From the NCBI GenBank assembly GCA_938091335.1, contig CALLJG010000013.1, positions 1 through 45,255 on the forward strand: a DNA stretch of 45,255 nt, in the 5' to 3' direction. A program made the translations under genes and the position numbers. This DNA comes from an uncultured Thermodesulfobacterium sp. (GTDB lineage Bacteria > Desulfobacterota > Thermodesulfobacteria > Thermodesulfobacteriales > Thermodesulfobacteriaceae). Each line of letters starts with the position of its first letter. The stretch's first letter is position 1. Of the stretch, positions 5,587 to 26,830 are shown one piece after another. Under the pieces are notes generated by a model. The model searched no databases, was not told the origin of the DNA, and saw only the letters and a list, made by a program, of their open reading frames with translations.

Positions 5587-5623
5587 AAATCTGATAAAAT
5601 TGAAAAATAAAAAGGAGGCATTT

Positions 5624-11705: not shown

Positions 11706-11734
11706 TTGAAAAAGATTGTGAAATAATATAAAAT
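11706..11734 (+). promoter_or_regulatory. Candidate cas6 promoter
   Basis: TTGAAA (11706-11711), 17 bp, then TAAAAT (11729-11734), about 85 bp ahead of cas6. A second candidate lies closer: TTGAAT (11764-11769), 17 bp, TATAGC (11787-11792). The first overlaps the left arm of the inverted repeat at 11719-11762. AT-richness makes both uncertain. Confidence 0.35.
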
Positions 11735-11762
11735 TAAACTTCTTTAAAGTTATGTTATTTCA
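11719..11762. repeat. Nested inverted repeat in front of cas6
   Basis: Outer arms TGAAATAA (11719-11726) and TTATTTCA (11755-11762) are perfect complements. Inside them, AACTT (11737-11741) and AAGTT (11747-11751) form a second short stem with a 5-nt loop. It overlaps the candidate -10 at 11729, so it could be an operator or an RNA structure in the cas6 leader. There is no T-run after it, so it is not a classical terminator. Confidence 0.4.
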
Positions 11763-11819
11763 TTTGAATGAACAATATTGAGATGATATAGCAATTTTTA
11801 ATAAGTGCCTGATTAAATT

Positions 11820-12797
11820 ATGCGAATACCTTATCAAAAATATACGTTTACGATTGAAGCATTAGAAGAGCTTCAACTTCCTTATTATAAAGGATCTACT
11901 TTCAGAGGTGGATTAGGAAATATATTAAAAAAAATAGTATGTGTTTTAAAAAAATTTGAATGTACTGAATGCATGTTTAGGTCAAAATGTATCTATGCTT
12001 ATTTTTTTGAAACACCCTCTTTTGAAGGTGCCAAAATAATGAATATGCATAAATATGAAAAGGTCCCTCATCCTTTTGTAATAGAACCACCACTTTCAGA
12101 AATAAACTCAAAAGAAAGCAAAATCCAAATCATCCCTCCTGGAAGTAAAATTGAATTTACACTTATACTTATTGGTAAAGCAATAGATTATCTTCCTTAC
12201 TTTATTTACAGCTTTGAAGAACTTGGAAAAAAAGGTATTGGAAGAAAAAAAGGTAAATATAAATTAATTGAAGTAAGTATTAAAAATAAAAACTTAGATC
12301 CAGAAAAAATTATTATCTATCATGAATCTGAGAAAAAATTAAAACATATTAGTATAAATGAAATAGAAATTCCTGATGATTTTATTCCTATTGATAATGT
12401 ATCTAAAATAACACTTCATCTTATAACACCTTTAAGAATAAAATATAAACGCTGTCTTGTAACTAATCCGGAATTTCACATATTAGTAAGAAACCTTATA
12501 AGAAGACTCAGTCTTTTATATTACTTTCACTGTAACAATAAAAAACCAATATGGGATTATAAAGCTATAATAAAATATGCTGAGCATGTAAAAATTGAAA
12601 CTTCAGAAATTAAATGGTTTGATTGGGAAAGATACTCTTTTAGACAAAACACAAGAATGAAATTGGGAGGTTTAATTGGAAAAATTACATATAAAGGGAA
12701 TATTAAATCTTTTTTGCCAATTCTACAAGCTGGTGAAATACTTCATGTAGGTAAAAACACCAGTTTTGGCCTTGGTAAGTATCAACTTATATTTTAA
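11820..12797 (+). CDS. cas6: CRISPR-associated endoribonuclease Cas6
   Basis: Cas6 cuts the CRISPR transcript within each repeat to release crRNAs. The 325-aa protein has the C-terminal Cas6 domain: TLHLITPLRIKYKR near 200, then RNLIRRLSLLYYFH, then the Gly-rich loop GKNTSFGLGKY at 311-321 that contacts RNA in RAMP proteins. The N-terminal half holds four cysteines (41, 48, 51, 57) in the CTECMFRSKCIYAYFFET segment, seen in this Cas6 subfamily and possibly structural or metal-binding. Catalytic residues cannot be fixed from sequence. It leads the type III-B locus but is separated from cmr1 by 135 bp. The ATG has no ribosome-binding site. Confidence 0.88.
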   Translation: MRIPYQKYTFTIEALEELQLPYYKGSTFRGGLGNILKKIVCVLKKFECTECMFRSKCIYAYFFETPSFEGAKIMNMHKYEKVPHPFVIEPPLSEINSKESKIQIIPPGSKIEFTLILIGKAIDYLPYFIYSFEELGKKGIGRKKGKYKLIEVSIKNKNLDPEKIIIYHESEKKLKHISINEIEIPDDFIPIDNVSKITLHLITPLRIKYKRCLVTNPEFHILVRNLIRRLSLLYYFHCNNKKPIWDYKAIIKYAEHVKIETSEIKWFDWERYSFRQNTRMKLGGLIGKITYKGNIKSFLPILQAGEILHVGKNTSFGLGKYQLIF

Positions 12798-12803
12798 AGA
12801 TTT

Positions 12804-12833
12804 TTGAGCGTGGGATAATAGAAAAAATATGAT
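12804..12833 (+). promoter_or_regulatory. Candidate promoter of the cmr operon
   Basis: TTGAGC (12804-12809), 18 bp, then TATGAT (12828-12833), 100 bp before cmr1. Downstream in the untranslated leader a perfect 7-bp inverted repeat, TGAGCTA (12848-12854) and TAGCTCA (12878-12884), could form a stem with a 23-nt loop. It is followed by A residues rather than T, so it is not a terminator for cas6. Confidence 0.3.
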
Positions 12834-12932
12834 CTCATTAAAAATTGTGAGCTATAGTTTTTTAAATAGATGCTACTTAGCTCAAAAAATACTTAAAGTA
12901 ATTATAACATTTGAAAAAAGGAGGAAAAAATA

Positions 12933-13989
12933 ATGTATTCATTAACACTTAAATGTAATTTGATTCCTCCTATGTTTATGGCAGGAGCTGATAATAAAAC
13001 TCCTGAATTGAGACCTTCTGAATTTAAGGGAATGATGAGATGGTGGTGGAGAGCGATAAAAGCAGAAGACAATATTGAAAAACTAAGAAAAGAAGAAGCA
13101 CAAATTTTTGGTGGAACAGGTGAAAAAGAAGGTAAAAGCAAGATTAAAATAGTGGTGACATTGGATAAACCAATAAATGGAAATGATATAAGCACCGAAA
13201 TTAAAAATTATGAAGGAATAAAATATCTTTATTACTCCACATTTTCACTAAGAGCAAGAGGAGAACCTATAATAAGAGCCTTTTACTCTCCTAATACTAC
13301 TTTTAAACTTAAAATAAAATTCATATGATAAAGATTCTTTTCAAAATGCTTGTGTAGCACTTTGGCTTTCAATTTATCTTGGTGGATTTGGAACAAGAGC
13401 AAGAAGAGGTGGCGGCAATATCGCAATTGAAAATGCCGAGTCAAACAATATCCAAGAAATGAATTTTTACTGTAATGCAAAAAATGTAGAGGAGTTAGAA
13501 AGTTGGCTCAAACAGAATTTAGAAATTGTAAAAAGATTTTCCAATCCTAAGGGGAAAACTTCAGAGTACACTACCTTAGTAAAAGGAAAAATTTTACTTT
13601 TTGAACAAACAAATTCATGGAAAGAAGCATTGAATCTCATAGGGAAAAAATATGAAGATTTTAGAGAAAAGAAAAAAAATGAAATTTTCAAAACGCCTGC
13701 ATTCGGAATGCCTGTTATGCATAACCGCTTTACTATGAGATTAGTTCCTTATAAAAATAGCCAGAACCGACTTTCAGATAGGTGGGCTTCTCCAGTAATA
13801 TTTAAAGTAATTAGAGGAAATGAAATTTATTTCCCAGTGATAGTTATTTTAAATCCAGGTGGTATAAAATGGATAGGAAAAGAAAAAAAAGATAGAGATT
13901 GGACTCTTGAAGAGATAAAAGAAGTGGACTGGTCTATTTTAGACGATTTTAAAAAAATTCTTAAACCTATTAAGGAGCTCGCCCTATGA
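12933..13989 (+). pseudogene. cmr1: Cmr1 (type III-B RAMP), interrupted by a frameshift
   Basis: Cmr1 (Cas7 family) caps the 3' end of the crRNA in the Cmr complex. The first 131 codons carry the family mark PELRPSEFKGMMRWWWRAIKA and stop at TGA TAA (13326-13331). The +1 frame then continues without a break through DKDSFQNACVALWLSIYLGG and the glycine-rich GFGTRARRGGGN to the stop at 13989. Together the parts make about 352 aa, the normal length. The switch point lies between 13318 and 13326. The second part has no in-frame start before ATG 13459, which would lose the Gly-rich loop. AAAGGAGG precedes the first ATG. Cause may be a real mutation, a sequencing error or programmed frameshifting. 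The 3' end overlaps cmr2 by ATGA. Confidence 0.85.
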
Positions 13990-16682
13990 GTAATTTCACA
14001 GAAAAATTAAAAGCATTTCTTCATGACCCAATTGATAAATGTCTTGATATCCCTTCTCATAAAGAAAAGGCTAAAAAATATGCTGAAATAATAGACATAA
14101 GTAATATTGAGGAAATAAAAGGACCTGATATGATAGCATCATGTATGGAAAGAAGCTTGCTTCCAAAAGGTATTATCCAAGATTTTGATGAAATAAGACA
14201 TCCATTACTTGGTGAAAAAATAGAAATCCCTAAATTTGATCCCCAAGAAATTTCTTCTATAGTTGAAGAAGTCTTTGAAGAAATTAAAGAAGAAATAAAA
14301 AATTATGATGAAAAAAATAAATTTATTTATTTGTGGCGAAATTTAATTGATAAGCTCATTGAGAAATCTAAAGATAAACCATGGAAAAAATATATTTCTC
14401 TTTTACCAGCTGATACAAGAATCCCAGATCATTCAATATGGGAACATCTTAAAATCACCTCCGCAGTTAACGCATATTGGAGTACTGATTATTTACTCCA
14501 AAATAATTCACTTTTTCTATTTACTATCGGTCCTGTTCAATCTTTCATTTCACAAGCAAGAAAAACTCAAGACTTTTTTATGGGAAGCTTCTTCCTTTCC
14601 TACCTGACCTTTACAGGTATGAAAGTAATAATAGAGGAATACGGTCCAACCTCAATCATATATCCAGATCTTTTTAATCAACCCCTTATGGATTGGTTCC
14701 TTGAAAAAAAGGAAATAAAAGTTTATAAATCAAGCTCACAATTTATAGATATTCCCACAATCCCAAATAGATTTGTTGCTATAATCCCTGAAAGTAATAA
14801 AGATAAAATAAAAGAATTGGCTGAAAAGATAAAAAATAAAATTGAAGAAGAAATTAAATGTATTCAACAAAAGACTTTTGAGGAATTTGAAGTAGAAAAA
14901 ATAAAAAATGAGATAGAAAACCAATTTAAAAATTTTCCAGAAATATACTGGGTAGCAATCCCTTGGAAAAAGGGTGATAGAGACATTACACTGGGGGATC
15001 TAAAAGATTTCTTTGAAGAAAATGAACTGGATAATTGGGAAAATCTATGGGATTTTGCAGATAAAAATGGAGAATATAAACCAAATATTGGTTTACTTTA
15101 TCAAATTCTTTATACAGCACTTGAAAAATCTTTAGCAGGAAGAAAAAATTTAAGAGAATTTAAAAACTTTAAAGAAAAAGGAAGAAAATGCTCAATATGT
15201 GGTGAAAGAAATGTTTTATTTTTCAGAGAAACAAAAAATAAAAATAAATTTAAAAAATATAATCCAGAAGCAATTGACTTAACTGAAAAAATATCTCCTA
15301 AGTATTTAGCTGATGGTGAAGGATTATGCGCAATTTGTTTCATAAAAAGAACATTTGAAATATATCTTGAAAAAAATGTAGACCAAAAATTTAAAGATTT
15401 TTCTTTTCCATCAACAGTAGAAATCGCTATCGCTGATTTTAAAGAAAAAGCAATTGAAAATAAATCATTAGAAAAATTTGAGAAAAAAATTAAAGAAATT
15501 TTAGGTGAAGCTCCTCCTTTAGTAGTTTCTCCTCTTCCAAAACTAAAAAATGAAATCAAAGAGACAATAGATGGTGAACTATTTTTTGAAGAAAATTTAA
15601 AAAAAGAAAGTATAAAAGAAAAATTTGAAAAAGATTTGGATGAAGAAAAAATCAAAGAAATTAAAAAAGATTTGAAAAATTTAAGAGAAGAAATAGGCAA
15701 TCCTAACCCATATTATGCCATTATTTATCTTGATGGGGATAATATGGGGAAATGGCTTTCAGGTGAGCTTCTCCCTAATATAAAAGATGCTTATAATTCA
15801 CAAACATGGGAAAAATTACCACCTAATTTTAAAAATCAATTAAATAAATTATCTTCAAAAAAGTTTTTAACCCCTGCAATTCATTCATCAATCTCAGCTG
15901 CTTTAAGAAATTATGCTATTGAATTTGTAAGGAAAATTGTAGAAGAAGAGCATCTTGGGAAACTTGTATATGCTGGTGGTGATGATGTCCTTGCCTTTGT
16001 CAATTTAAGAGATTTAGCCCAAGTAATGGAAAAATTGAGATTTTCTTTTTCAGGCGAAATAAAAATTGAAAATAAAGAAATTAAAGTTGATCCTCAAAAT
16101 AAAAATGGATTTGTAGAAAAAGATGGGATTTATATCCTTACTATGGGTAAAAATGCTACTCTTTCTATGGGTGTTGTTATTGCTCATTATAAAGAACCAT
16201 TAAAAATTGTTATAAATAAAGTTTTTGAGATGGAAAAGAAAGCAAAATCAAACCATAATAAAGATTCATTTTCAATTCTACTTCTTAAAAAATCAGGAGA
16301 AGAAAGAATTGCAACTTATAAATGGAAATATGATAATATTTTAACCACTGAGATAATAAGAAAAGCAAAAGAGGCAATGAATGATAAGAATGAAAGATAT
16401 ATTTCTCATAATTTTATCCAGAAACTAAAAATAGAATTTGCAAGACTAAAAGAAAAAAATGGATATTTACCAGGTCCAGAAGAAATTTTTAATAAAGAGC
16501 TTTTAAGATTAATTTCTCGTGCTTATAACTATAAAGGAAAAAAAGATAATAAAAATGAAAAAGATAAATTTATTGAGAATTTTCACAAACTACTTAAAGA
16601 CTTTTTCTGGGCTTCAGGTGGAAATTTAGATAATTTTACAAATTTGCTTGAAACTGCAAGTTTTTTAAATAAAGGTGAATAA
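13986..16682 (+). CDS. cmr2: Cmr2/Cas10, large subunit with cyclase motif
   Basis: Cas10 is the signalling subunit of type III complexes and makes cyclic oligoadenylate when target RNA is bound. The 898-aa protein begins with the Cmr2-type LKAFLHDPIDKCLD (His13-Asp14), the remnant HD site. A zinc ribbon uses Cys402/Cys405 and Cys448/Cys451 (CSIC, CAIC). The first palm domain shows YLDGDNMGKW, and the second carries an intact GGDD at residues 664-667 (YAGGDDVLAFV), so cyclase activity is expected. Whether the HD site cuts DNA is uncertain, as it often does not in Cmr2. The ATG overlaps the cmr1 stop. Confidence 0.94.
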   Translation: MSNFTEKLKAFLHDPIDKCLDIPSHKEKAKKYAEIIDISNIEEIKGPDMIASCMERSLLPKGIIQDFDEIRHPLLGEKIEIPKFDPQEISSIVEEVFEEIKEEIKNYDEKNKFIYLWRNLIDKLIEKSKDKPWKKYISLLPADTRIPDHSIWEHLKITSAVNAYWSTDYLLQNNSLFLFTIGPVQSFISQARKTQDFFMGSFFLSYLTFTGMKVIIEEYGPTSIIYPDLFNQPLMDWFLEKKEIKVYKSSSQFIDIPTIPNRFVAIIPESNKDKIKELAEKIKNKIEEEIKCIQQKTFEEFEVEKIKNEIENQFKNFPEIYWVAIPWKKGDRDITLGDLKDFFEENELDNWENLWDFADKNGEYKPNIGLLYQILYTALEKSLAGRKNLREFKNFKEKGRKCSICGERNVLFFRETKNKNKFKKYNPEAIDLTEKISPKYLADGEGLCAICFIKRTFEIYLEKNVDQKFKDFSFPSTVEIAIADFKEKAIENKSLEKFEKKIKEILGEAPPLVVSPLPKLKNEIKETIDGELFFEENLKKESIKEKFEKDLDEEKIKEIKKDLKNLREEIGNPNPYYAIIYLDGDNMGKWLSGELLPNIKDAYNSQTWEKLPPNFKNQLNKLSSKKFLTPAIHSSISAALRNYAIEFVRKIVEEEHLGKLVYAGGDDVLAFVNLRDLAQVMEKLRFSFSGEIKIENKEIKVDPQNKNGFVEKDGIYILTMGKNATLSMGVVIAHYKEPLKIVINKVFEMEKKAKSNHNKDSFSILLLKKSGEERIATYKWKYDNILTTEIIRKAKEAMNDKNERYISHNFIQKLKIEFARLKEKNGYLPGPEEIFNKELLRLISRAYNYKGKKDNKNEKDKFIENFHKLLKDFFWASGGNLDNFTNLLETASFLNKGE

Positions 16683-16683
16683 A

Positions 16684-17769
16684 ATGTGGTATAAAATCAT
16701 TCCAAATGATACTTTATTTTTTAGAGATGGAAAACCATTTAGTATGGGAATGGAAACATGGGCATCTTCTATCTTTCCACCAAATCCATCAACACTTTAT
16801 GGTGCCATAAGAACATGGCTTATATTTGAAAAGGGAAATTTAAAAGCTTTTAAAGAAGGAAAATTAAAAGAAGAACTTGGAACACCAGATGAAAAAGGCA
16901 CACTTAAAATCAAAGGTCCTTTTTTATTTAAAAAAGAAGCATTATTCCCTGTTCCAAAAGATTTACTAAAAGAGAAAGGGAAGACCGATAACGAATTATT
17001 CAGATTAAATTTGGTAAAACCAGAAATTTTTATTTCTGATTATCCAGAAAATAAACATATTTTAGTAAATAAAAGTAATAGAAAGTTAGAAGAAGTTGAA
17101 GGATTTATTACAAGTATCTATTTAGAGGATTATTTATCAGGGAAAGATAAGTTAAGATTAACAAAAAAAGAAGAAATTTATATTGAAGAGCCAAAAATCG
17201 GTATTGCAAGAGAAAAAATAACAAAAACTACAAAAGAAGGCTATCTTTACCAAATATCAATGATTAGATTAAAAGAAGATGTGTCAATGGTTGTAAAAAT
17301 AGAGGGTGTGAAGGATATTCCTGAAAGTGGAATAATACAGCTTGGTGGAGATGGTAGAACTGCAAAAATAGAAAAAATAGAAGATAACATATTCCAAAAT
17401 GTTGAAAACATAAATTTAAAATTTGAAAATAAAAAATTTAAAATTTATCTTGCTACACATGCGATTTTTGAAAATGGATATTTACCAAAATGGATTAATA
17501 AAGATTGGGAAGGAGAATATAATGGAATAAAATTAAGATTAATTTGTTGTGTAATTGGAAGATATAGACTAATAGGTGGTTGGGACTTAGCAAAGAATGA
17601 GCCAAAGGGAATGCACAGAGCAGTTCCAGCAGGAAGCGTTTATTATTTTGAAATCCTTGATAATAGCAGTGCTGAAAGTATTAAAAATGTTTTCCACTTT
17701 AAAAACATTTCTGAGATAAATCCAGAAGAGGGCTATGGCTTATCATTTATTGGGAAGATAAAAGAATGA
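16684..17769 (+). CDS. cmr3: Cmr3 (Cas5-family RAMP)
   Basis: Cmr3 holds the 5' tag of the crRNA at the base of the Cmr complex next to Cmr2. The 361-aa product starts MWYKIIPNDTLFFRDGKPFS, a textbook Cmr3 N-terminus, and continues with SSIFPPNPSTLYGAIRTW. The C-terminal Gly-rich segment EEGYGLSFIGKI matches a RAMP G-loop. The ATG at 16684 follows AAAGGTGA and is preferred over a GTG at 16675. The stop overlaps the next gene as ATGA, so the CARF gene downstream is translationally coupled to the complex genes. Confidence 0.93.
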   Translation: MWYKIIPNDTLFFRDGKPFSMGMETWASSIFPPNPSTLYGAIRTWLIFEKGNLKAFKEGKLKEELGTPDEKGTLKIKGPFLFKKEALFPVPKDLLKEKGKTDNELFRLNLVKPEIFISDYPENKHILVNKSNRKLEEVEGFITSIYLEDYLSGKDKLRLTKKEEIYIEEPKIGIAREKITKTTKEGYLYQISMIRLKEDVSMVVKIEGVKDIPESGIIQLGGDGRTAKIEKIEDNIFQNVENINLKFENKKFKIYLATHAIFENGYLPKWINKDWEGEYNGIKLRLICCVIGRYRLIGGWDLAKNEPKGMHRAVPAGSVYYFEILDNSSAESIKNVFHFKNISEINPEEGYGLSFIGKIKE

Positions 17770-18956
17770 AAAAAATAATTACAATGGTTGGAACTTCCAT
17801 ATTTGAAAATTATTTAGAAGAAGAAAAAAATCAGGGAATTAAAAATTACTGCGAGGATCTCAAAAAAGAAAGAGCAAAAGAATATGATTCAGAAAAAGGT
17901 AAAATTGACAAGATAAAAAAAGAAATTCAAGAGTGGATTAAGAAAAAAGGAAATATAAAAAATGCCTCGGCTGAGGTAAAAAGTCTATTAAAAATCAAAG
18001 AGGAATTAAATAATGAGTTTGAAATTTATCTCCTTTGCTCTGATACAATTTTAAGTAAAGTTGGTGGCGAATTGCTTAAAGAAGAAATTCTTCCAATGAT
18101 AGGTTTTGATAAAAATAAAATTTTTATAGAAATTATTGGAGGTTTACAAATCTGGGATAGAAAAGAATTTAACGAAGGTATGGGAAATCTGATAAATGAA
18201 ATTTATAAAATTGCAGATGAATATTGGGAAAATGTAATTATCAATATTACTGGTGGATACAAAGCAACCATACCTTATCTTACAATTCTTGCTCAGATAA
18301 ATAAATGTTCAATCTATTATATATTTGAAGATACAGATGCATTGATAAAGATCCCATATTTACCATTAGATATTAAATGGAGTTTATTTGAAAAATATGA
18401 AAATTTCTTTAGAAAACTTGAAAAAGAACAGATTCAAGAATTGAAGGATATTAAGTATGAAGATATTGAAGATATTAAAAGCCTGTTAGAAATAGTTGAT
18501 AATCTATATTCTTTTAATCCACTTGGAATGACTCTATGGAAAAGGTATAAACAAAATTTTGAACTTTTTTACATTTCAAGGCTCTTTAAAGAATATATTG
18601 AGAAAGATCCAAATTATGAAAAGATAGCTAACAAATCTTTATTAGAACTTAAAAGAAGAATAAATTTAAATCCGAATGATCCAGATTTAGATCACAAATT
18701 GCAAGGTATTGATTTTGGTGGTTTTAAATGTTTTAAACATAAAGAGGAAAATTTACAAGTAAGGATTTTATATAAAAAAGAGGAATGGGAAACAAAATAT
18801 AAAAGTATAGAATATGATCTTTATATTGGACTTATTTGCATTGGTAGCGATGTTCATAATGTTGAAAATGAATATGTAGAAGATTTTAAAAGAAATTTTG
18901 AAAAAATTAAAGATATAAAAGAGTATGAACTTCATAAAATAAAAAAGGAGGTCTAA
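17766..18956 (+). CDS. CARF-domain effector with RelE-like C-terminal domain (Cami1-like)
   Basis: CARF proteins bind the cyclic oligoadenylate made by Cas10 and switch on a fused effector. The N-terminus, MKKIITMVGTSIFENYLEEE, and NITGGYKATIP (Asn160 to Lys166) are the two ligand-site marks of the APE2256-type CARF family. No HEPN motif R-x4-6-H is found, so it is not Csm6/Csx1. The C-terminal part, about 255-396, instead reads like a RelE toxin: a helical stretch, then LQGIDFGGFKCFKH, then QVRILYKKEEW (Arg333, Tyr336), then IGLICIGSDVHNVENEY. CARF-RelE proteins such as Cami1 cut mRNA on ribosomes; that function is inferred here. It is coupled by ATGA to cmr3 and placed before cmr4. Confidence 0.7.
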   Translation: MKKIITMVGTSIFENYLEEEKNQGIKNYCEDLKKERAKEYDSEKGKIDKIKKEIQEWIKKKGNIKNASAEVKSLLKIKEELNNEFEIYLLCSDTILSKVGGELLKEEILPMIGFDKNKIFIEIIGGLQIWDRKEFNEGMGNLINEIYKIADEYWENVIINITGGYKATIPYLTILAQINKCSIYYIFEDTDALIKIPYLPLDIKWSLFEKYENFFRKLEKEQIQELKDIKYEDIEDIKSLLEIVDNLYSFNPLGMTLWKRYKQNFELFYISRLFKEYIEKDPNYEKIANKSLLELKRRINLNPNDPDLDHKLQGIDFGGFKCFKHKEENLQVRILYKKEEWETKYKSIEYDLYIGLICIGSDVHNVENEYVEDFKRNFEKIKDIKEYELHKIKKEV

Positions 18957-18958
18957 AT

Positions 18959-19921
18959 ATGTTTAAGAAAATTAAAATGTTTTTTATAATTGCAGAAACA
19001 CCAATCCATGCAGGAAGCGGAAGTGAACTCGGAATTGTTGATTTACCCATCCAAAGAGAAAGATATACAGATTTTCCAAAAATTGAAGCATCAGGACTTA
19101 AAGGATGTATAAGAGAAGCATTTGAAAACACTGATAAAAAAAATTATGTTCCCCTTATTTTTGGTCCTGAAGAAGGTGAAGCTTATGCCAGTGCTATTAG
19201 TTTTACTGATGCAAGAATTTTACTTTTCCCAGTTAAATCATTAAAAGGGATTTTTGCATGGATAACCTGCCCAATGGTGCTTGAAAGATTTAAAAAAGAC
19301 CTTGAACTGGCTGGTATAACCAATTTTAATTTCAGTAATTTTATTAACCTTCAAAATACACTACCACAGCAAACAAATCTTGCGATTGAATCAAGAATCG
19401 TTCTTGAGGAGTTTACCTTTGAAGTAAAAGAAGAGCAAATAACTTCTGGTATCGCAAATTGGCTTGCTGATAAGATTTTCCCTAACAATAACTCTTATAA
19501 CTATTGGAAAGAAAAACTAAGAAAAGACCTTGTTATTTTACCTGATGATGATTTTAAGCAATTTGTTAAAACATCAACTGAAGTAATTACAAGAACAAGA
19601 ATTGATGATACTACTGGAACAGTTAAACCAGGTGCTCTTTGGACAGAAGAATATTTACCTCAGGATACGATTTTATATTCCTTAGCAATGTTTACTGGTC
19701 CAAGAAAAAAAGATAGTCAAAAAATGATATTTAAAGCAGATACACCAGAAGAAAAAGTAGAAGAAAAAGAAGATACACCAGAAAAAGCAGCAGAACGTGT
19801 TGCAGAATTTTTTGAAAAATGGATACCAAAAGTAATCCAAATAGGTGGAAACGCCACAATTGGAAAAGGACTTGTAAGAATAAATTTTTTAAAGGAGAGT
19901 AAAAATGAAAGAGGAAAGTAA
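18959..19921 (+). CDS. cmr4: Cmr4 (Cas7-family backbone and target-RNA nuclease)
   Basis: Cmr4 forms the helical backbone and cuts target RNA every six nucleotides. The 320-aa protein shows TPIHAGSGSELGIVDLPIQRE near the N-terminus. Asp28 in VDLPIQRE aligns with the catalytic aspartate of archaeal Cmr4, and this is followed by ASGLKGCIREAF. The C-terminal GGNATIGKGLVRI is the RAMP Gly-rich loop. A strong AAAAAGGAGG stands before the ATG. Its own ribosome-binding site probably gives higher synthesis, fitting its multi-copy role. A Glu/Lys-rich insertion (EEKVEEKEDTPEKAAERV) precedes the last strand. It overlaps cmr5 by 17 bp. Confidence 0.95.
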   Translation: MFKKIKMFFIIAETPIHAGSGSELGIVDLPIQRERYTDFPKIEASGLKGCIREAFENTDKKNYVPLIFGPEEGEAYASAISFTDARILLFPVKSLKGIFAWITCPMVLERFKKDLELAGITNFNFSNFINLQNTLPQQTNLAIESRIVLEEFTFEVKEEQITSGIANWLADKIFPNNNSYNYWKEKLRKDLVILPDDDFKQFVKTSTEVITRTRIDDTTGTVKPGALWTEEYLPQDTILYSLAMFTGPRKKDSQKMIFKADTPEEKVEEKEDTPEKAAERVAEFFEKWIPKVIQIGGNATIGKGLVRINFLKESKNERGK

Positions 19922-20327
19922 AATCACACAACTGGAAAGAGGAAGAGCAGAATTTGCATATAAATGTGTAGAAGAAATAGTAGAAAACCAAAAATATGAA
20001 AAGATAAGAGAAGATTATCGTTCATACTCAAGAAAAATTCCGCAAATGATTCTTTCAAATGGGCTTGGGCAGACAATCGCATTTATGAAATCTAAAGCAA
20101 AAGATGGTAATGCTTATGAAATTTTGTATTCCCAGATAACAGATTATCTTAAAAGTGATACAACAGCAAGAATAAGGATGCCAGATGATAAAAATGAACT
20201 AATTGAATGGGTTATCTCACTTGATTCTTATAATTATCGTTATGCTACTGAGGAAATCCTTGCATTCTTAAACTGGCTGAAAAGGTTCGCAGAAGGAATG
20301 ATTAAAAAAGAAGAAGGAGAAGAATAA
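19905..20327 (+). CDS. cmr5: Cmr5 (small helical subunit)
   Basis: Cmr5 is the small alpha-helical (Cas11-type) subunit that runs along the inner filament of the Cmr complex and contacts RNA. The 140-aa sequence is mostly helical and carries the family marks QLERGRAEFAYKCVEEI near the N-terminus, YRSYSRKIPQMILSNGLGQT around residues 40-60, and ATEEILAFLNWLKRFAEGM near the C-terminus. AAAGGAGAG precedes the ATG, which lies inside cmr4. The stop is shared with cmr6 as TAATG. Confidence 0.92.
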   Translation: MKEESKITQLERGRAEFAYKCVEEIVENQKYEKIREDYRSYSRKIPQMILSNGLGQTIAFMKSKAKDGNAYEILYSQITDYLKSDTTARIRMPDDKNELIEWVISLDSYNYRYATEEILAFLNWLKRFAEGMIKKEEGEE

Positions 20328-21214
20328 TGAGAATAAAATTTCCCAATTCAAATAAGTATTTTCCAAATGATACATATAAAATATTTTCGCGTGTTTCTGC
20401 TACATCAAATTTTAACTTTTACTTTCTTTTCAATGCACCGGTTGTTATTGGAAGAAATTTGCCTGAAAAAATAAGGATTAACGGAGAGATTGAAAAATTC
20501 AAATGGGATCAAAATTTTTTAAACAATATTGAAAAAAGAAAAGACAATTTATTTGAATTTTTAGAAAAAGATGGATATAAATGTGCTAAATTCAATGGTA
20601 AATGTAACTGGCGGCTTATAATAGGGCTTGGTGCTTCGCATCCTCAGGAAACATCTATGACACTTCACCATATATACGGAATCCCTTATATTCCTGGTAG
20701 TGCAATTAAAGGTGTTACAAGACATTATGCAGTTTTAAAGTTTGCAGAGAAAGATATAAAAAATGATGAAAAATTTGAAGATGCAGTTAAAAGGGTTTCA
20801 CAAAATCTTGAAAATGGAAAAGAGCTTAATATAGAAGTTGAATTTAAAGAGGAGAATAAAAATGAAAAAATTAAATTTTCAGAATTGATAGAGATTTTTG
20901 GAACCCAAAATCAAAAAGGAAAAGTGATATTTATGGATGCCTATCCTATAAATAAAGTAAATTTAAAGATTGATATAATGAATCCGCATTATCCTGAATA
21001 TTATTCACAAGGGAAACCACCAGCAGACTGGCAAAACCCAAGACCCATAAAATTTTTAACAGTTGAAAATACAGATTTTAAATTTTATTTATTTTCAAAA
21101 AGTGAAGAACTTTTAGAAAAAGCAAAAATTCTTTTAAAAGGTGCATTAAAAGAAGAAGGGATTGGAGCAAAAACATCACTTGGATATGGAATATTTAATT
21201 ATACGGAGGAATAA
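20327..21214 (+). CDS. cmr6: Cmr6 (Cas7-family RAMP)
   Basis: Cmr6 stacks between the Cmr4 backbone and Cmr1 at the 3' end of the crRNA. The 295-aa protein has the central RAMP motif ASHPQETSMTLHHIYGIPYI, followed by PGSAIKGVTRHYAV, the hallmark of Cmr6. A second region reads FMDAYPINKVNLKIDIMNPH, then the family-typical PADWQNPRPIKFLTVE, and the C-terminal Gly-rich loop is GIGAKTSLGYGIF. The ATG overlaps the cmr5 stop, and the stop is one base from the next ATG. No defect is visible. Confidence 0.94.
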   Translation: MRIKFPNSNKYFPNDTYKIFSRVSATSNFNFYFLFNAPVVIGRNLPEKIRINGEIEKFKWDQNFLNNIEKRKDNLFEFLEKDGYKCAKFNGKCNWRLIIGLGASHPQETSMTLHHIYGIPYIPGSAIKGVTRHYAVLKFAEKDIKNDEKFEDAVKRVSQNLENGKELNIEVEFKEENKNEKIKFSELIEIFGTQNQKGKVIFMDAYPINKVNLKIDIMNPHYPEYYSQGKPPADWQNPRPIKFLTVENTDFKFYLFSKSEELLEKAKILLKGALKEEGIGAKTSLGYGIFNYTEE

Positions 21215-21215
21215 A

Positions 21216-22049
21216 ATGAAAAAAGAATTTCATATAATCTCAACTGGTGTTTCAATTATTACAAATGCACAGAAAAATAATGTTATACCGCAAGATAAAA
21301 AAATAAGAGATGAGGAATACTGGAGAGAACTCCTTGATAACCCTTCAGAAATACAAAAATTAAAATCTTTTGTAGAAAAAGACCCACATAAAAATTCAGC
21401 AGAACTTAATACATTTTTAAGAGTTGTAGAAGATAAAGACCCCTCAAATATTGAAATTTATCTTTTTGGAACAAAAACATATTCAAATGAATTATGTAGA
21501 AGGATATTAGAATTGTATCTTAGAGAACTAGGATATAAATTATACACACCTTATGAAATAAGTGGTTATTTCTGGGAAGCAAAATATTATGATGAAAATT
21601 ATGCAAAGGATGAGTTTAAAAAAGGCATCTCCGAACTTCTTGATAGACTTATTCATATTGCTCAGAAAAAAAAGAAAGAAGGTTATGAAATTTATTTTAA
21701 TCCAACAGGTGGACTTAAAGCACATGTTATAACAACAGCACTTGCCGGTTATCTTGTAGATGCTCAAATTTATTATATGAATGAAGAATTTAATGAGACA
21801 GTTTTTTTGCCAAAACTCTTTTATCTGCCAAAAGGTAAAGAAATAGAAATACTTAATAAATTAAACTCCTCTTCAATAATCTCTGGAAAAGAAACAAAAG
21901 ATTTATATTCTTCTTATCAAAATGAGATAGAAAGACTTATTGTTTATAACCTAATTACCACAGAAACCAATGAATCTGGCGAGATTTTTAAAATTAAAAT
22001 AACATATAAAGGAAAGTTAATTTTAGAAGAACTAAAACAAAATACTTGA
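21216..22049 (+). CDS. CARF-domain protein with C-terminal winged helix (Crn1-like candidate)
   Basis: This is a second APE2256-type CARF protein. It has an N-terminal strand plus ligand loop, MKKEFHIISTGVSIITNAQ, and the second loop NPTGGLKAHV (Asn162 to Lys168). The C-terminal 60 residues (EIERLIVYNLITTET, then IKITYKGKLILEELK) read as a winged helix. There is no HEPN, RelE or PD-(D/E)XK site. Stand-alone CARF-wHTH proteins of this type include Crn1 ring nucleases (Sso1393/Sso2081), which degrade cyclic tetra-adenylate, and possible regulators; either role is inferred. The ATG at 21216 follows CGGAGGA and is clearly better than upstream starts. The leader promoter overlaps its stop. Confidence 0.72.
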   Translation: MKKEFHIISTGVSIITNAQKNNVIPQDKKIRDEEYWRELLDNPSEIQKLKSFVEKDPHKNSAELNTFLRVVEDKDPSNIEIYLFGTKTYSNELCRRILELYLRELGYKLYTPYEISGYFWEAKYYDENYAKDEFKKGISELLDRLIHIAQKKKKEGYEIYFNPTGGLKAHVITTALAGYLVDAQIYYMNEEFNETVFLPKLFYLPKGKEIEILNKLNSSSIISGKETKDLYSSYQNEIERLIVYNLITTETNESGEIFKIKITYKGKLILEELKQNT

Positions 22050-22204
22050 AATAAATACCAATCTTTGATATATAATGAAATTGCTTTCTTTTTTGTTCTT
22101 TGAAAATTGAAACTGGAGGTTTGACGCAAAAAATAAGATAATTTTTTTAAGATAAAACCCTAAAATTAAGAAATATCAATAACTTTACTCTGTCTAATTT
22201 TAGG
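22050..22204 (+). promoter_or_regulatory. CRISPR leader
   Basis: This is an AT-rich stretch directly before repeat 1. A promoter candidate begins within the last codons of the CARF gene: TTGAAA (22046-22051) with TATATA (22069-22074, 17-bp spacing) or TATAAT (22071-22076). A fragment at 22118-22125 matches the repeat start (GTTTGAC). A 14-bp inverted repeat (22155-22168 / 22195-22208) closes the leader and enters repeat 1. Array direction is set by the 3' end of the repeat, ATTGCGAC, the usual 8-nt crRNA tag. Confidence 0.7.
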
Positions 22205-22208
22205 GTTT
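22155..22208. repeat. 14-bp perfect inverted repeat spanning the leader-repeat junction
   Basis: Left arm AAACCCTAAAATTA (22155-22168) and right arm TAATTTTAGGGTTT (22195-22208) are exact reverse complements with a 26-nt loop. The last four bases of the right arm are the first four of CRISPR repeat 1. The symmetry stops immediately beyond these arms. Confidence 0.85.
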
Positions 22209-23405
22209 GACCTCATCAAAAAGGGATTGCGACATCTTAAGCATGTCCTGCTTAAACTCCTCAAAGAGTGTTTGACCTCATCAAAAAGGGATTGCGACTT
22301 TACACCTCCTTTTTATTTTTTTTTGTTTAAATATGTTTGACCTCATCAAAAAGGGATTGCGACTTCTTTACAAATCGCTATTTGACACATAATTTAACCG
22401 TTTGACCTCATCAAAAAGGGATTGCGACTACACTTGACAGTTAACAAAAAAGGTTTATAATATAGTTTGACCTCATCAAAAAGGGATTGCGACTCTCTTA
22501 AATTTAATTCTTGTAGAATTTGTTTTTCCGTTTGACCTCATCAAAAAGGGATTGCGACAAAATTATTGTTATAAATTCTGGGTTTATTTTCAACGTTTGA
22601 CCTCATCAAAAAGGGATTGCGACATTTCCCCCGATATGACAAGACAAGAAGTTTCAAAAGTTTGACCTCATCAAAAAGGGATTGCGACATAATGAATAAA
22701 CAAGGAATTTTGTATTCCTCTGAGGTTTGACCTCATCAAAAAGGGATTGCGACAATGTTCCGGAGTTGCATCCTCCGGAACATCAATAAGTTTGACCTCA
22801 TCAAAAAGGGATTGCGACTAATTTTTCCTCCTTTAAAACAATTTCATTTTTAGAGTTTGACCTCATCAAAAAGGGATTGCGACTTGCCTGCTTACTCTTA
22901 CATAAGTTTTCCATGTTTCTCGTTTGACCTCATCAAAAAGGGATTGCGACAAAATAAAAAATAAATAAAACTGCTTCCCGGGTAGAGTTTGACCTCATCA
23001 AAAAGGGATTGCGACACGTAAAAAGGCTGGGAAGAAAGGTAAAGAAAAAGTGTTTGACCTCATCAAAAAGGGATTGCGACTATTTCCATTTGGCTTGGTT
23101 ATTTGTGTTTATATAAGTTTGACCTCATCAAAAAGGGATTGCGACTATCCCCTGTAAGTTGTCCTTACAGGATGATATGAAGTTTGACCTCATCAAAAAG
23201 GGATTGCGACTCTTTTTTTGAAAAAACTTTTATTCCTTGACATAATGTTTGACCTCATCAAAAAGGGATTGCGACTTTCTGATGTAATACGGTAATCCTA
23301 CGCAAAAATTAGTTTGACCTCATCAAAAAGGGATTGCGACAGATTTTCTTTTCCCGTTAATTCTGGTTAGTTCTCTGTTTGACCTCATCAAAAAGGGATT
23401 GCGAC
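22205..23405 (+). CRISPR. CRISPR array: 19 identical 29-nt repeats, 18 spacers
   Basis: The repeat begins GTTTGACCTCATC, runs through AAAAAGGG and ends ATTGCGAC. Repeats start at 22205, 22270, 22335, 22400, 22465, 22530, 22595, 22660, 22725, 22790, 22855, 22922, 22987, 23052, 23117, 23182, 23247, 23312 and 23377. Seventeen spacers are 36 nt; the eleventh (22884-22921) is 38 nt. All repeats are identical, including the last, so no degenerate trailer end is seen. The repeat itself has a small 5' hairpin, TTTGA-CCTCA-TCAAA. The ATTGCGAC end implies plus-strand transcription and Cas6 cutting 8 nt from the repeat 3' end. It lies directly behind the type III-B genes. Confidence 0.98.
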
Positions 23406-23650
23406 ATTTCTAACGCTATTTTGACAAGCTTATTATAGATAATTGACTTTTTAAAAGATTTTGAATAATTTATAATAAAAATTGAATGCTGAATTTTCGA
23501 AACATCTTCAGAGGTAGTAGCATAAAGGAAATAGAGATTTCTGAATGGGTTTGTAAGTCTGCGTTTCAAAATCTTGCTCTCAGCTTTTACCAGGGTTGAC
23601 CCCAACTATAAGGATTGTGAGTGCTAAGGAAATAACAAAAGGAGGTTTGT
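23406..23650. other. 245-bp trailer between the CRISPR array and the ATPase-nuclease operon
   Basis: No convincing gene. A minus-strand frame covers most of it but runs into the last CRISPR repeat and has no family resemblance I can name. Near the right end TTTTAC and TATAAG (about 23587-23615, 16 bp apart) could be the operon promoter, weakly supported, followed by the AAAAGGAGG site of the 61-aa gene. Confidence 0.4.
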
Positions 23651-23836
23651 ATGAATTATAAAGATGCAGTGAAAGAAAAAATTAAAGATGAGACAACTAA
23701 AAATCTTTGGGAGGAAATTGCTAAAAGTTATGAACAAGGTGGTAAAGAAGGGATTAAAACTGTGTTAAGTAAAAAAGCTGATGAAATAGTTACTGAATTT
23801 AAAAAATTACTAGAATCTTTAGAGCAGAAACTTTAA
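23651..23836 (+). CDS. Small helical protein, first gene of an ATPase-nuclease operon
   Basis: I do not recognise this 61-aa protein. It is highly charged, starts MNYKDAVKEKIKDETTKNLW and looks wholly alpha-helical, with a C-terminal amphipathic segment EIVTEFKKLLESLEQKL. A strong AAAAGGAGG ribosome-binding site sits 6 nt before the ATG, and the gene ends 13 bp before the Rad50-like gene. Translation is therefore likely real. The arrangement suggests a small partner or regulator of the ATPase or nuclease, comparable in position to small subunits of other SMC-like defence systems. That is inference from context only. Confidence 0.65.
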   Translation: MNYKDAVKEKIKDETTKNLWEEIAKSYEQGGKEGIKTVLSKKADEIVTEFKKLLESLEQKL

Positions 23837-23849
23837 AGGAGACAAATAA

Positions 23850-26003
23850 ATGCTTGGTATTAAAATGCTTAAGATAAAAGGTTTTCGTGGCTATGTAGAT
23901 GAAAAAGAGTTCACTTTTGAAACCCCAGTTATAATTCTTTTTGGCGAAAACCATCGCGGAAAAAGTAGCACACTTAATGCAATTGAGTGGTGTCTATTTG
24001 GAAAGGAGTGTATTGGAAGAGATACAGGAATCCGTGAACGAATTGACTGGGAAGTTCGTAATCGGAACTTACCTCTAAAGGATGAGGTATTTGTAGAAAT
24101 AGAATTAAAAGATGAGAATAATGATACTTTTAAGATAATGCGCAAATGGATTAGCAAAGAAAAAGATGAATTGCAAATAACATTACCTGATGGACAATTG
24201 TTAACAAAAGAAGAGGCGGAAAAGAGACTTGATCAGATTTTAAAGTGTTCATTCAGGGATTTTTTAACTACAGTCTATCAGCATCAGGAAGCAATTCGTG
24301 CTATTCTTACACAAGAGCCAAGAGATAGAAATGATGCTATTGACCGCTTGCTTGGGCTTTCTGATTATAGAAACATATTATCTGGTATAAATGAGGCAAA
24401 AATAGATGAGAAACAGAGAAAACTAAATGAAAAACTTGAAATCTTTAAAGGCAACATAGAAACTGCCTTGAAGACCAGGCAAAAGGACTTGGAAGAAAAA
24501 AGAAAAGAATTAATCAATAAGGGAATAAAAGAAAGCTTTATCAATGAAAATGGAGCCTATGAGATCGCCAAAATTGTTAAAGAGGCTCTATCTCAATTTG
24601 CCTCAGAGATAGGACTTACTCTCACAGATTTACCTATTTCTGAAAACTGGAAGGAAATAAAGGAAAAATTCTTAGATAAGGTAAACAAGGAGATAACCAG
24701 ATTTAGGTCAGAAATGCCAGATGTAAAAAGACAAGGAGAATTAGTGAAAGAGAAACATAAGATAACTTCACTTCAATCAATACTGGAAATAAAGAATAAA
24801 AAATATCAAGATGCAAAAAAGAAAATTGAAGAATTTATTAAAGACATTGGAGATGAAGAAAAATTGAATAACACTAAATCTCACATAGAGAAACAAATTG
24901 CTCTGAAAGAAAAAGAATTGAAGGAAATCAATGCAAAAGGGAAAACTATAAGTGAGGCTATAGAGTATTTGAAATTAGAGAGTATAGACAAAAATATTTG
25001 TCCTGTATGTGAAAAAGAAACTCCTGATTTATTAACTCATTTAGAACAAGAATGGAACAAAAAATATAAAGAGCAAATGGGAAAAATAAAGGATGAAAGA
25101 GAAAAACTTAAAAAAGATTTAGATAATGTAGAACAGAGGCTTAAACAGTTAAGAGAACTGGATAAAAACAAGAAAACTGCTGAAAACGAATTAAAAGAGA
25201 TTTATAAAGAAATTGCAGCTTATCTAAAGAGAGAGATTACCGAAAAGGATGATCCTTCTACAATCCTTGCCAAACACTTGAATGAGCTTGATGAGGAGAT
25301 TAATAAATTAAAGGAGTCCATTGACTCACGACAGAAAAAATTAGATGACATCCAGGAAAAGGCGAAAGAACTTGAGCAGATTTTAGAAATATTAAATCTT
25401 GAGGAAAAGAGAAAAATTGTTGAAGAAATAAAGGAGACACCTGAATATAAAAAGATTGAAGACCTAAAGGATAAAATGGCTGAATTGGCAAATGAGCTAA
25501 ATAAAATTAAGGAGGCTATAAATCAAGCCTCGCACGAGGAAGCAAAAGAGAAAATAATTTTTGCTTGTAAAAAAATAAATGAACTTTTTTGCAAAATTAC
25601 AAATAACCCTGCTATAAGCAAAATTGAACTTTCGGTAACTCCAGACAGCAGAACTGGTAGAAACAATTATGAATTTAAAGACCAAAATGGAAAAGACTTA
25701 ACTCCTATCTTAAGTCAGGGAGATTTAAATGCATTAGCATTATCAATCTTTTTAGGATTATCTTCCCTGAACAATCAGTTTGGCTTTCTTATGCTTGATG
25801 ACCCATCACAGAGCCTGGGATCTGCTCATAAAGAAAAATTTGTGGAAATATTAGATGATATATCTGCTCATCGATCAATCATTCTTTCTACCATGGATAA
25901 GGAATTGCAAGATTTAATAGTTTCAAAACTAACTAAAGCAAAAACGAAATACATTTTTACAAATTGGACACCCACAGGAGGACCTGAAGTAAGAAGGGAA
26001 TAA
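23850..26003 (+). CDS. Rad50/SMC-like ATPase with CxxC hook
   Basis: The 717-aa protein is an ABC-type ATPase of the Rad50/SMC class. Walker A is GENHRGKSS (residues 32-40); QHQEAIRAIL around 147-156 is the Q-loop region. Two long coiled-coil arms (about 185-370 and 395-570) flank a zinc-hook motif CPVC at 384-387. The signature LSQGDLNALALS starts at 621, and Walker B is FLMLDDPSQSLGS, with Asp650-Asp651. It is shorter than housekeeping SbcC or SMC. The DDPSQSLG box is common in SMC-like ATPases of defence operons. It is preceded by AAAGGAGA and followed after 1 bp by a nuclease gene. More CGN arginine codons occur near the start than in neighbours, hinting at transfer. Confidence 0.85.
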   Translation: MLGIKMLKIKGFRGYVDEKEFTFETPVIILFGENHRGKSSTLNAIEWCLFGKECIGRDTGIRERIDWEVRNRNLPLKDEVFVEIELKDENNDTFKIMRKWISKEKDELQITLPDGQLLTKEEAEKRLDQILKCSFRDFLTTVYQHQEAIRAILTQEPRDRNDAIDRLLGLSDYRNILSGINEAKIDEKQRKLNEKLEIFKGNIETALKTRQKDLEEKRKELINKGIKESFINENGAYEIAKIVKEALSQFASEIGLTLTDLPISENWKEIKEKFLDKVNKEITRFRSEMPDVKRQGELVKEKHKITSLQSILEIKNKKYQDAKKKIEEFIKDIGDEEKLNNTKSHIEKQIALKEKELKEINAKGKTISEAIEYLKLESIDKNICPVCEKETPDLLTHLEQEWNKKYKEQMGKIKDEREKLKKDLDNVEQRLKQLRELDKNKKTAENELKEIYKEIAAYLKREITEKDDPSTILAKHLNELDEEINKLKESIDSRQKKLDDIQEKAKELEQILEILNLEEKRKIVEEIKETPEYKKIEDLKDKMAELANELNKIKEAINQASHEEAKEKIIFACKKINELFCKITNNPAISKIELSVTPDSRTGRNNYEFKDQNGKDLTPILSQGDLNALALSIFLGLSSLNNQFGFLMLDDPSQSLGSAHKEKFVEILDDISAHRSIILSTMDKELQDLIVSKLTKAKTKYIFTNWTPTGGPEVRRE

Positions 26004-26004
26004 C

Positions 26005-26529
26005 ATGAATACAAAGACTTTTGAACAATTAAAAAGTTTATATGATACAGTGGGAGGTCAGGAATTTGGTAAACTTTGCCAGAAACTTTTAGCAATCGCA
26101 TTTCAAAAAGCGGGTTATTCATGTGTAGCAGAATCTGAAAGAGGTGTTCAAGGAGTAGATATAGGAGAAGTAGAAAAAGGAGATGAAAAATATTCTATTG
26201 AGGTTAAAACTACTACCACAGATTATGTCACTTATGAGAAGAAAGACGAAGAAGGACTCAAGTACAAAAAAGAAAAGGGTTATACACCTGTTTTGGCTGT
26301 TCTTAAACTTGACAGATTCTCAGATTGGTTTTTCATAAAAGCTGATAGCCTCAAAGTAGGAAGGATATACATAGATTCCCTCAGACCTTTCAGAATGCAT
26401 AACCTTGAACAAAAGATTTCTCCTTATTTTGAGAAAACAGTGGAAGAGCATTATAAAGGAGCTCTACAACATGGACAAAGTTATTTAGACAATGTTTTAA
26501 AACAAAAAAGGGAAATTAGAAAGGTTTGA
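26005..26529 (+). CDS. PD-(D/E)XK (Mrr-like) nuclease partner of the Rad50-like ATPase
   Basis: The 174-aa protein has a restriction-endonuclease-like core. VGGQEFGKLCQKLLAIAFQK (from residue 16) supplies the first helix with Glu20. GVDIGEVEKGDEKYSIEVKT then gives the catalytic set Asp52, Glu66 and Lys68 (D-x13-ExK). The remaining 100 residues, including DWFFIKADSLKVGRIY, continue the fold and end in a charged helix. It is one base after the ATPase stop, with AAGAAGGGA as ribosome-binding site, so the two proteins probably act together on DNA. I recognise no named defence system with this exact small three-gene form. It could also be a restriction-type or repair nuclease. Confidence 0.72.
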   Translation: MNTKTFEQLKSLYDTVGGQEFGKLCQKLLAIAFQKAGYSCVAESERGVQGVDIGEVEKGDEKYSIEVKTTTTDYVTYEKKDEEGLKYKKEKGYTPVLAVLKLDRFSDWFFIKADSLKVGRIYIDSLRPFRMHNLEQKISPYFEKTVEEHYKGALQHGQSYLDNVLKQKREIRKV

Positions 26530-26584
26530 GCTCAACTATAGTTAATGGGAAAAATTGAAAAATGAATTATATTAAAAATCAAAA

Positions 26585-26830
26585 ATGATCATTTTTTTAA
26601 TTATTTTGGTGTTATTTATCTCTAGTTGCGCTACTTTACCAAAGATTGATAGTACTTCTCAAGGCAGATTTCAAGTAGAAACGTTCAAATTTTTGGATTG
26701 TGGCATTTATTCTCCTGGAAGACTTATAACTGTTTTAGGAAGTTTTAAAGGTCTTAAAGAAGGAAAAATTGGAGTTTATTGGCATCCTTGGTGGGAACCT
26801 TGGTGGTATCATCCCTGGTGTTGGCCTTAA
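26585..26830 (+). CDS. Short Slp-like lipoprotein with Trp/His-rich tail
   Basis: This 81-aa lipoprotein has a hydrophobic signal (residues 2-12) and a lipobox ending SSC, with Cys15 as the lipidation site. FDCGIYSPGRLITVLGSFKG-like sequence in the middle (read FLDCGIYSPGRLITVLGSF) and LKEGKIGVY resemble the Slp/YeaY outer-membrane lipoproteins, which are normally 160-190 aa. This copy lacks much of the domain and ends in a Trp-, His- and Pro-rich tail (YWHPWWEPWWYHPWCWP). It may be a degraded or minimal Slp. The ATG has no good ribosome-binding site. It marks the return to chromosomal genes after the island. Confidence 0.6.
   Translation: MIIFLIILVLFISSCATLPKIDSTSQGRFQVETFKFLDCGIYSPGRLITVLGSFKGLKEGKIGVYWHPWWEPWWYHPWCWP

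Follow-up and report, generated by a model that had tools for sequence, protein, structure and literature searches.

The contig examined here, CALLJG010000013.1, comes from an uncultured Thermodesulfobacterium sp. (assembly GCA_938091335.1) and was analyzed from position 1 to position 45,255, a stretch that we call the window. At positions 23651-26529 of the + strand it carries three packed genes coding for proteins of 61, 717 and 174 amino acids (aa): a small subunit, a Rad50-like ATP-binding cassette (ABC) ATPase and a nuclease resembling Hjc, the archaeal Holliday-junction resolving enzyme. These genes, referred to below as the trio, had been put forward in a preliminary description of the window as a candidate defense module. 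The features of the trio are as follows.

23651..23836, + strand: gene 1, small subunit, 61 aa; AAAGGAGG directly 5'; homologous open reading frame (ORF) before the ATPase gene in 8/8 loci
23850..26003, + strand: gene 2, Rad50-like coiled-coil ABC ATPase, 717 aa; Pfam AAA_23, E 7.6e-19
23943..23966, + strand: Walker A GENHRGKS, residues 32-39 of the ATPase; from the sequence
24999..25010, + strand: zinc-hook motif CPVC, residues 384-387; present in 8/8 members including the window
25785..25820, + strand: Walker B and D-loop FLMLDDPSQSLG, residues 646-657; D-D-P in 8/8
26005..26529, + strand: gene 3, Hjc-like PD-(D/E)XK nuclease, 174 aa; from predicted model and profile
26158..26160, + strand: predicted catalytic Asp52 of the nuclease; invariant in 7/7 aligned sequences
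26200..26208, + strand: predicted catalytic Glu66-Val67-Lys68 of the nuclease; invariant in 7/7 aligned sequences

The ORFs of the proposed operon lie where the preliminary description had placed them, on the + strand, with intergenic gaps of 13 bp between genes 1 and 2 and 1 bp between genes 2 and 3. The strong ribosome-binding sites that it had claimed for all three genes are present for the first two (AAAGGAGG and AAAGGAGA, respectively), while gene 3 is preceded by the weaker GAAGGGA.

The same trio was found in eight loci (the window, L011, which belongs to genome G050, L014, L019, L020, L022, L045 and L046), in each of them in the order small gene, ATPase gene, nuclease gene, and with gaps of 1-20 bp or overlaps. 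Each protein was recovered by profiles from which it had been left out. For the ATPase, all eight members were retrieved at 269-924 bits, with all controls at or below 39 bits; the nuclease was retrieved in 7/7 cases, L046 being kept apart; and the small ORF was the best new match in 8/8 loci (1174 ORFs, E 3.7e-24 to 0.0041), the weakest recoveries being those of L014 (E 0.0041) and L046 (E 0.0026). In L011, L014 and L045 the start of the small gene is an inner ATG that we chose, and in L014 the nuclease gene is cut off by the contig end. Calculated for four pairs, the ratio of nonsynonymous to synonymous substitution rates (dN/dS) of the small gene amounted to 0.11-0.18; the ATPase gene gave 0.16-0.24 and the nuclease gene 0.16-0.26. 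In the window-L019 pair, dS (2.2-3.8) is near or past saturation. The leave-one-out recovery and the dN/dS together rule out that the small ORF is spurious, and the conservation of the 61-aa gene, on which the preliminary description had made its proposal depend, is borne out by a homologue in every locus. The trio is real and beyond chance, with all of its parts found again, and in one order, in eight genomes; its genes form a unit that is conserved and tightly coupled.

The second protein is shown to be a Rad50-type ATPase with a zinc-hook motif. Besides AAA_23, the window protein matches the Pfam model SMC_N (E 3.2e-13), where SMC stands for structural maintenance of chromosomes, and a profile of six members, compared with the PDB, reached Rad50 3aux at E 7.7e-27, its matches being Rad50 and SMC chains. 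The predicted model (mean predicted local distance difference test, pLDDT, 85.5; predicted template modeling score, pTM, 0.53) has two head halves and long helices, with the CPVC motif in a loop (residues 377-393, pLDDT 60-69) between two of these helices. In a Foldseek search with this model, the best match was a chain of the Mre11-Rad50-Nbs1 entry 7zr1, and Rad50 led the ranking, in which a type II Lamassu chain (rank 45) also came after chains of SMC, cohesin, MukB and JetABC; given that the root mean square deviations are large, this ranking is weak evidence. The CPVC hook and the DDPSQSLG-type Walker B of the preliminary description are both in place, at residues 384-387 and, as FLMLDDPSQSLG, at residues 646-657.

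The third protein is predicted to have an Hjc-type PD-(D/E)XK fold with the D/E/K residues in place. The AlphaFold model, built from five sequences (pLDDT 86.3, with residues 44-50 below 50), has a long C-terminal helix at residues 132-172, and archaeal Holliday-junction resolving enzymes make up its 24 best Foldseek matches to PDB entries (lowest E 9.4e-6; template modeling score 0.56-0.70 by target length and 0.37-0.49 by query length). By sequence alone, a profile of six nucleases reaches Pyrococcus furiosus Hjc, 1gef, at E 7.3e-6. The catalytic residues named in the preliminary description, Asp52 and Glu66-x-Lys68, proved invariant, together with Q26 and V67, in 7/7 aligned sequences including the window. 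For the window nuclease, Pfam returned nothing at E <= 1. A true Hjc orthologue was rejected, as the cut-offs for Hjc are not reached (NCBIfam, 20.2 of 70 bits; Pfam, 17.0 of 21.1 bits in three of the six proteins scanned and no match in the other three). Moreover, in a gapless extension of the alignment between profile and Hjc, Q26 faces residue E9 of Hjc, which sets the nuclease apart from true resolvases. A weak match to MPN551_DNA_bnd (18.8 of 250 bits) was set aside. Thus the trio nuclease shares with archaeal Hjc a predicted core fold and the D...ExK residues but differs from it by its scores, its long C-terminal helix and the invariant Gln26.

The L046 locus departs from this pattern. 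Its nuclease is a 201-aa ORF (5403-6008, - strand of L046) that starts 7 bp past the ATPase stop; no nuclease domain is found in it by Pfam, and it matches the nuclease profile in two separate stretches whose order is exchanged, with the ExK half ahead of the D half (total E 6.5e-9 among 960 ORFs; 4.1e-5 and 0.026 for the halves). A truncated nuclease, considered as an explanation, was dropped since both halves are matched within this ORF. Because of the swapped order, the protein appears, by its sequence, to be a natural circular permutation of the Hjc-like nuclease in the same operon slot.

The small protein, 59-74 aa long across the loci, is predicted to be helical from its composition and from the preliminary description. 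For the window copy, Pfam gives chance-level matches only; the other seven small proteins were compared with the PDB, as a six-member profile. Three candidates were set aside as chance likeness between short charged helices, namely ModE_repress (21.6 of 98.5 bits), phrog_5072 (20.3 bits) and, for the six-member profile, the designed helical protein 7rmx of the PDB (2.7e-6).

In the genome draws two or three candidates were scored per genome, and the counts include the starting genome. The trio is rare in all of them. When 99 genomes were searched at the protein level, the nuclease was recovered from the window genome and G050 only, and the ATPase (E <= 1e-30) was found in 3/395 genomes of the window's phylum, i.e., the window genome itself, G050 and G132. 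A contig scan with three nucleases gave four loci (L019, L020, L021 and L022). With a profile of six ATPases, draws around the genomes of L019, L020 and L022 yielded 1/400 at E <= 1e-40 (the starting genome alone), 4/395 at E <= 1e-30 (the starting genome, two taken to be G050 and G132 again, and the new G1041) and 2/295 (the starting genome and the new G1458). Class-level searches around G050 (1/10) and G132 (1/3) returned these genomes themselves only, and the nuclease was not found in any of the 13 other genomes of the genus, two of which are only 70% and 82% complete. For the tallies, G830 and G914 were dropped as repeats of G050 and G132, and L021 was taken to be the contig of G132. This leaves eight distinct genomes with the trio: five in the window's phylum, one labeled Dehalococcoidia (L020) and two in a phylum labeled archaeal, namely that of the L019 genome, labeled Micrarchaeota. 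The genome of L022 (labeled Proteobacteria) and G1041 are counted in the window's phylum, where they probably belong because the draw that contains them repeats members of that phylum.

The ATPases of the window and L019 are 51% identical, and those of the window and L011, L020 or L022 33-34%, whereas L011, L020 and L022 share 73-77% among themselves although L020 is labeled Dehalococcoidia and the other two are in the window's phylum. The L046 ATPase is the most distant (20-23% identity to other members). Since these identities do not track host descent, the trio most likely moves laterally.

In the window, the trio stands next to other defense genes, listed here as neighbors outside the module.

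11820..22049, + strand: type III CRISPR-Cas genes (CRISPR, clustered regularly interspaced short palindromic repeats); Pfam on three (Cmr3 and two Cas_APE2256), others by eye
22205..23405, + strand: CRISPR array, 19 exact repeats; repeat search

The array that the preliminary description had noticed beside the trio thus consists of 19 exact 29-nt repeats and is placed between the cas genes and the trio; a degenerate repeat suspected near 23595 was not supported on checking. All of this lies between conserved flanks. One of them, with DnaJ and aspartokinase, is present in 14/14 genomes of the genus. Contigs of six relatives were compared: three of them stop short of the other flank, represented by homologues of the ORFs up to 11282, and those of G001, G005 and G013 contain it as well. 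In the window, the interval between the flanks (11282-26585) measures 15.3 kb and comprises cas genes, array and trio. In G001 it is only about 1.4 kb long; in G013 it spans about 2.5 kb, with a membrane protein gene and an ORF resembling a transposase, and in G005 it spans 8.5 kb and is filled by different genes, among them receptor-like, ABC-transporter-like and permease genes (gene names by eye). The trio and the type III CRISPR-Cas genes therefore occupy a variable island in the genus. Within the cas operon, the two Cas_APE2256 proteins (17766-18956 and 21162-22049), which are of the CARF type, differ from each other; their presence suggests cyclic-oligoadenylate signaling. At the other side, a gene for a Slp-type lipoprotein adjoins the trio (26585-26830, 81 aa) and seems shortened, since its G005 counterpart has 175 aa.

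Apart from L014 and L019, whose contigs are too short, six loci have usable flanks, and in four of these, including the window, other defense genes are found near the trio, the neighbors having been picked by eye and without a comparison with random loci. The small gene of L011 is preceded, in this order, by genes for an OLD-TOPRIM ATPase and a WYL-like protein, and about 3 kb downstream there is a gene for a DNA methylase. The neighbors at L022 include an HNH protein and a protein of the HSDR_N/N6-methylase kind, and those at L046 AbiEi/AbiEii, an SNF2-type helicase with DUF4391, and Fic. As inspected by eye, none of the six loci places the trio in a housekeeping repair operon, a setting that the preliminary description had held to speak against its proposal. 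The profile searches and the neighborhood survey that it had called for have thus found the trio recurring in eight genomes, often with defense genes close by. The WYL-like protein is encoded directly 5' of the small gene in L011 (8218-8511) and L014 (45-338); it has 97 aa, is 52% identical between the two loci and scores 20.5 of 21.8 bits with Pfam WYL in L011, with no match in L014. Inspection by eye revealed no such ORF at the remaining loci (in L019 only 0.7 kb of upstream sequence is available); the protein was counted outside the module and is maybe a regulator.

Given its rare recurrence in a small number of distant microbes, the trio looks like a so far undescribed machine for defense against foreign DNA. 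We consider it rather probable that the three genes encode one complex guarding against foreign DNA, a role suggested by genomic context and spread. The pairing of a Rad50-type clamp with a nuclease related to enzymes that act on branched DNA suggests a device that senses and cuts ends, hairpins or junctions of invader DNA. In such a complex, two ATPase chains would dimerize via the hook, and ATP would close the heads around abnormal DNA, i.e., ends, hairpins or branched replication intermediates made by phages and plasmids. The small protein would bind the ATPase and relay or restrain its state, and the nuclease, off by default, would dock on the ATPase, for which it may use the long helix at its C terminus, and cut DNA upon engagement of the heads. 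The action would be like that of SbcCD, where a clamp licenses a nuclease, and the purpose like that of Lamassu; the target may be invader DNA alone, or the outcome may include cell killing as well.

Several observations weigh against this proposal. With the trio profiles, a bacterial SbcC control (L035) scores at most 16.5 bits, no better than pieces of the Lamassu ATPase LmuB (at most 22.1 bits), and two SMC controls score higher than this SbcC (up to 39.0 bits); hence, the label "Rad50-like" rests on the PDB comparisons. NCBIfam ranks arcadin-4 (79.2 of 860 bits, a weak match set aside as an identification) above Rad50 (53.1 of 700 bits); sbcc follows with 36.9 of 478.5 bits, so that neither the SbcC nor the Rad50 cut-off is reached, and the match to the SbcC-like family phrog_77 (3.8e-25) was likewise set aside as weak. 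As the PDB profile finds Rad50 while the SbcC control and the NCBIfam Rad50 model score low, the trio ATPase is, by these sequence scores, a family of its own near Rad50 and no Rad50 orthologue. Nor does the ATPase have "all ABC motifs", as the preliminary description had put it. Walker A, CPVC and FLMLDDPSQSLG are present, but the signature motif is an S-x-G-(D/Q) variant in most members (by eye), the Walker B glutamate is replaced by Asp (D-D-P in 8/8 members, L046 included), and there is no histidine at the usual place of the H-loop (by eye). With this histidine absent and Walker B altered, ATP turnover is uncertain. In addition, several loci are short contigs of metagenome-assembled genomes that are perhaps misbinned, above all L019 (3.6 kb); L020 is surrounded mostly by housekeeping genes and L045 by transposases (by eye). 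The plasmid and phage searches gave no match to the trio, and viral contigs gave none except two weak ones (29% identity, ATPase residues 1-155).

The best-surviving alternative, which we nevertheless hold to be unlikely, is that the trio is a divergent Lamassu (ABC-3C) system acting by abortive infection, with the ATPase as LmuB, the nuclease as LmuA and the small protein as a shrunken LmuC or middle component. According to PMC10586767, Lamassu has the order LmuA-LmuC-LmuB, an LmuB of about 650 aa with a general E-to-Q change in Walker B, and exchangeable effectors, PD-(D/E)XK nucleases among them. LmuB likewise carries a CPxC hook and has a similar length, and the PADLOC LmuB model PDLC03859 is the best match for all six trio ATPases scanned (124-160 bits; 159.5 for the window, against 61 for PbeC). 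The L011 ATPase, which is outside these six, scores 136.9 bits with the model. Two real Lamassu loci in related genomes, L032 and L033, served as controls, and their LmuB proteins score far above the trio with this model (502 and 380 bits, respectively). The model is unspecific: five other proteins from relatives also score 75-81 bits with it, and by eye three of these resemble SMC or SbcC. Conversely, the trio profiles give at most 20.9 bits to the L032 LmuB and at most 22.1 bits to the piece of L033. The latter LmuB (L033:6241-8265) is broken by a stop codon in an otherwise complete-looking LmuA-LmuC-LmuB operon.

DUF3732 (PF12532) is found in none of the six trio ATPases scanned, a set without L011 and L022, but in both controls (190 bits for L032 and 164 bits for L033), and Walker B reads D-D-P in 8/8 trio members as opposed to D-Q-P in both LmuB controls. 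In the PDB, the trio profile matches Rad50 and SMC chains, with no DUF3732 chain at an E value below 1e-3; the L032 LmuB, by contrast, matches three distinct sequences with DUF3732 (7e-65 to 3e-59), and Rad50 is absent from its matches up to E 0.1. PADLOC LmuA matches neither of the two nucleases scanned (2/2 in the controls), and no ABC-3C C-terminal domain (CTD) of Pfam is found in six nucleases, CTD7 being detected in one of the two LmuA controls (L032 only). The window small protein matches neither LmuC nor a middle-component family, while the LmuC of L033 matches MC3 and LmuC; no LmuC was seen in L032. Membership based on the PADLOC label was therefore rejected. The trio is built on a plan similar to that of Lamassu, with three parts, an SMC/Rad50-like ATPase with CPxC, a small partner, a nuclease effector and a defense context, yet it fails the membership tests run, as it lacks, in the proteins scanned, DUF3732, the E-to-Q change, the LmuA CTD and a middle-component family, has another gene order and contains a separate ATPase family. 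A clear fit to a named system, which the preliminary description would have counted against its proposal, was not found, the LmuB label being weak and LmuA and LmuC being without a match in the proteins scanned.

Less probable still is a role in DNA repair instead of defense, in which the trio would replace SbcCD/Mre11-Rad50 in hairpin opening or in the resolution of stalled forks. A Rad50-like ATPase with an Hjc-like nuclease would suit such a role, and the window genome yielded no SbcD although this protein is over the cut-off in all 13 other members of the genus, a point that counts for repair at the expense of the proposed defense complex. Moreover, nine AAA_23 matches were obtained in that genome, and all but the trio ATPase have E values no lower than 4e-7 and open frames of at most 564 aa; by these measures, no SbcC is evident there. 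On the other hand, the genome is 92.4% complete, so that the gap may hide one gene, and a search with the sbcD neighbors of three relatives gave no match within 4 kb at 16 contig starts and 15 contig ends. The patchy distribution, the island location and the defense neighbors also argue against repair. In the three relatives inspected, sbcD lies beside an rlmE-like gene and other housekeeping genes, with no adjoining sbcC (by eye). The trio does share with SbcCD/Mre11-Rad50 a coiled-coil Rad50-like ABC ATPase, a zinc-hook motif and a DNA nuclease partner; it differs in having a predicted Hjc-fold PD-(D/E)XK nuclease instead of the calcineurin-like Mre11, an extra small subunit and a short ATPase of 717 aa, as well as by being patchy, often near defense genes and far below the SbcC/Rad50 cut-offs.

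It is very improbable that the unit is a toxin-antitoxin pair with an ATPase, in which the small protein would inhibit the nuclease like an antitoxin: its gene comes first, as do those of many antitoxins, and the protein has only 59-74 aa, but the gene abuts the ATPase gene and never the nuclease gene in 8/8 loci, and the window copy has no antitoxin match in the family-library scans. An inhibitor is thus less likely than a constitutive third subunit.

Two further systems have related parts. DndD and the CxC-ATPase PbeC share with the trio a Zn-hook ABC ATPase with a coiled coil of about 400 residues and a small cognate partner (PMC10853773). The window ATPase scores 60.6 bits with PbeC and 45.8 bits with DndD against 159.5 bits with LmuB, and the window small protein and nuclease have no DndE-like or other Dnd match in the family-library scans. 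Wadjet uses a hinge-type SMC protein with kleisin/KITE partners, and no Wadjet-type kleisin, KITE or Toprim match was obtained for the same two proteins in these scans. Wadjet (MksBEFG) also directs an SMC-like ATPase and a nuclease against foreign DNA (PMC10586767); its nuclease is a Toprim protein, unlike that of the trio. No description of this set was found in the literature covered, which includes the accessible parts of PMC12839542 and PMC10853773; the survey of ABC ATPase conflict systems by Krishnan et al. 2020, the likeliest place for an earlier account, and the Lamassu structure papers lie outside that coverage.

We see an even chance that the trio is a distinct Rad50-based immune class, present in bacteria and probably archaea, in which an Hjc-like nuclease and a mini-subunit replace Mre11, the clamp senses and the blade cuts invader ends or junctions, and even a permuted nuclease is kept in its slot. 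For the annotation of such systems, the results carry a warning, since a single PADLOC LmuB model catches ATPases that fail the other Lamassu tests. Lamassu and Wadjet raise the question of how a DNA-repair clamp became a sensor of foreign DNA, and the trio, as a compact relative that brings its own nuclease and whose third subunit has only 59-74 aa, would be a near-minimal version that could be reconstituted. If the proposal is true, Mre11 would be exchangeable for a nuclease of the resolvase fold.

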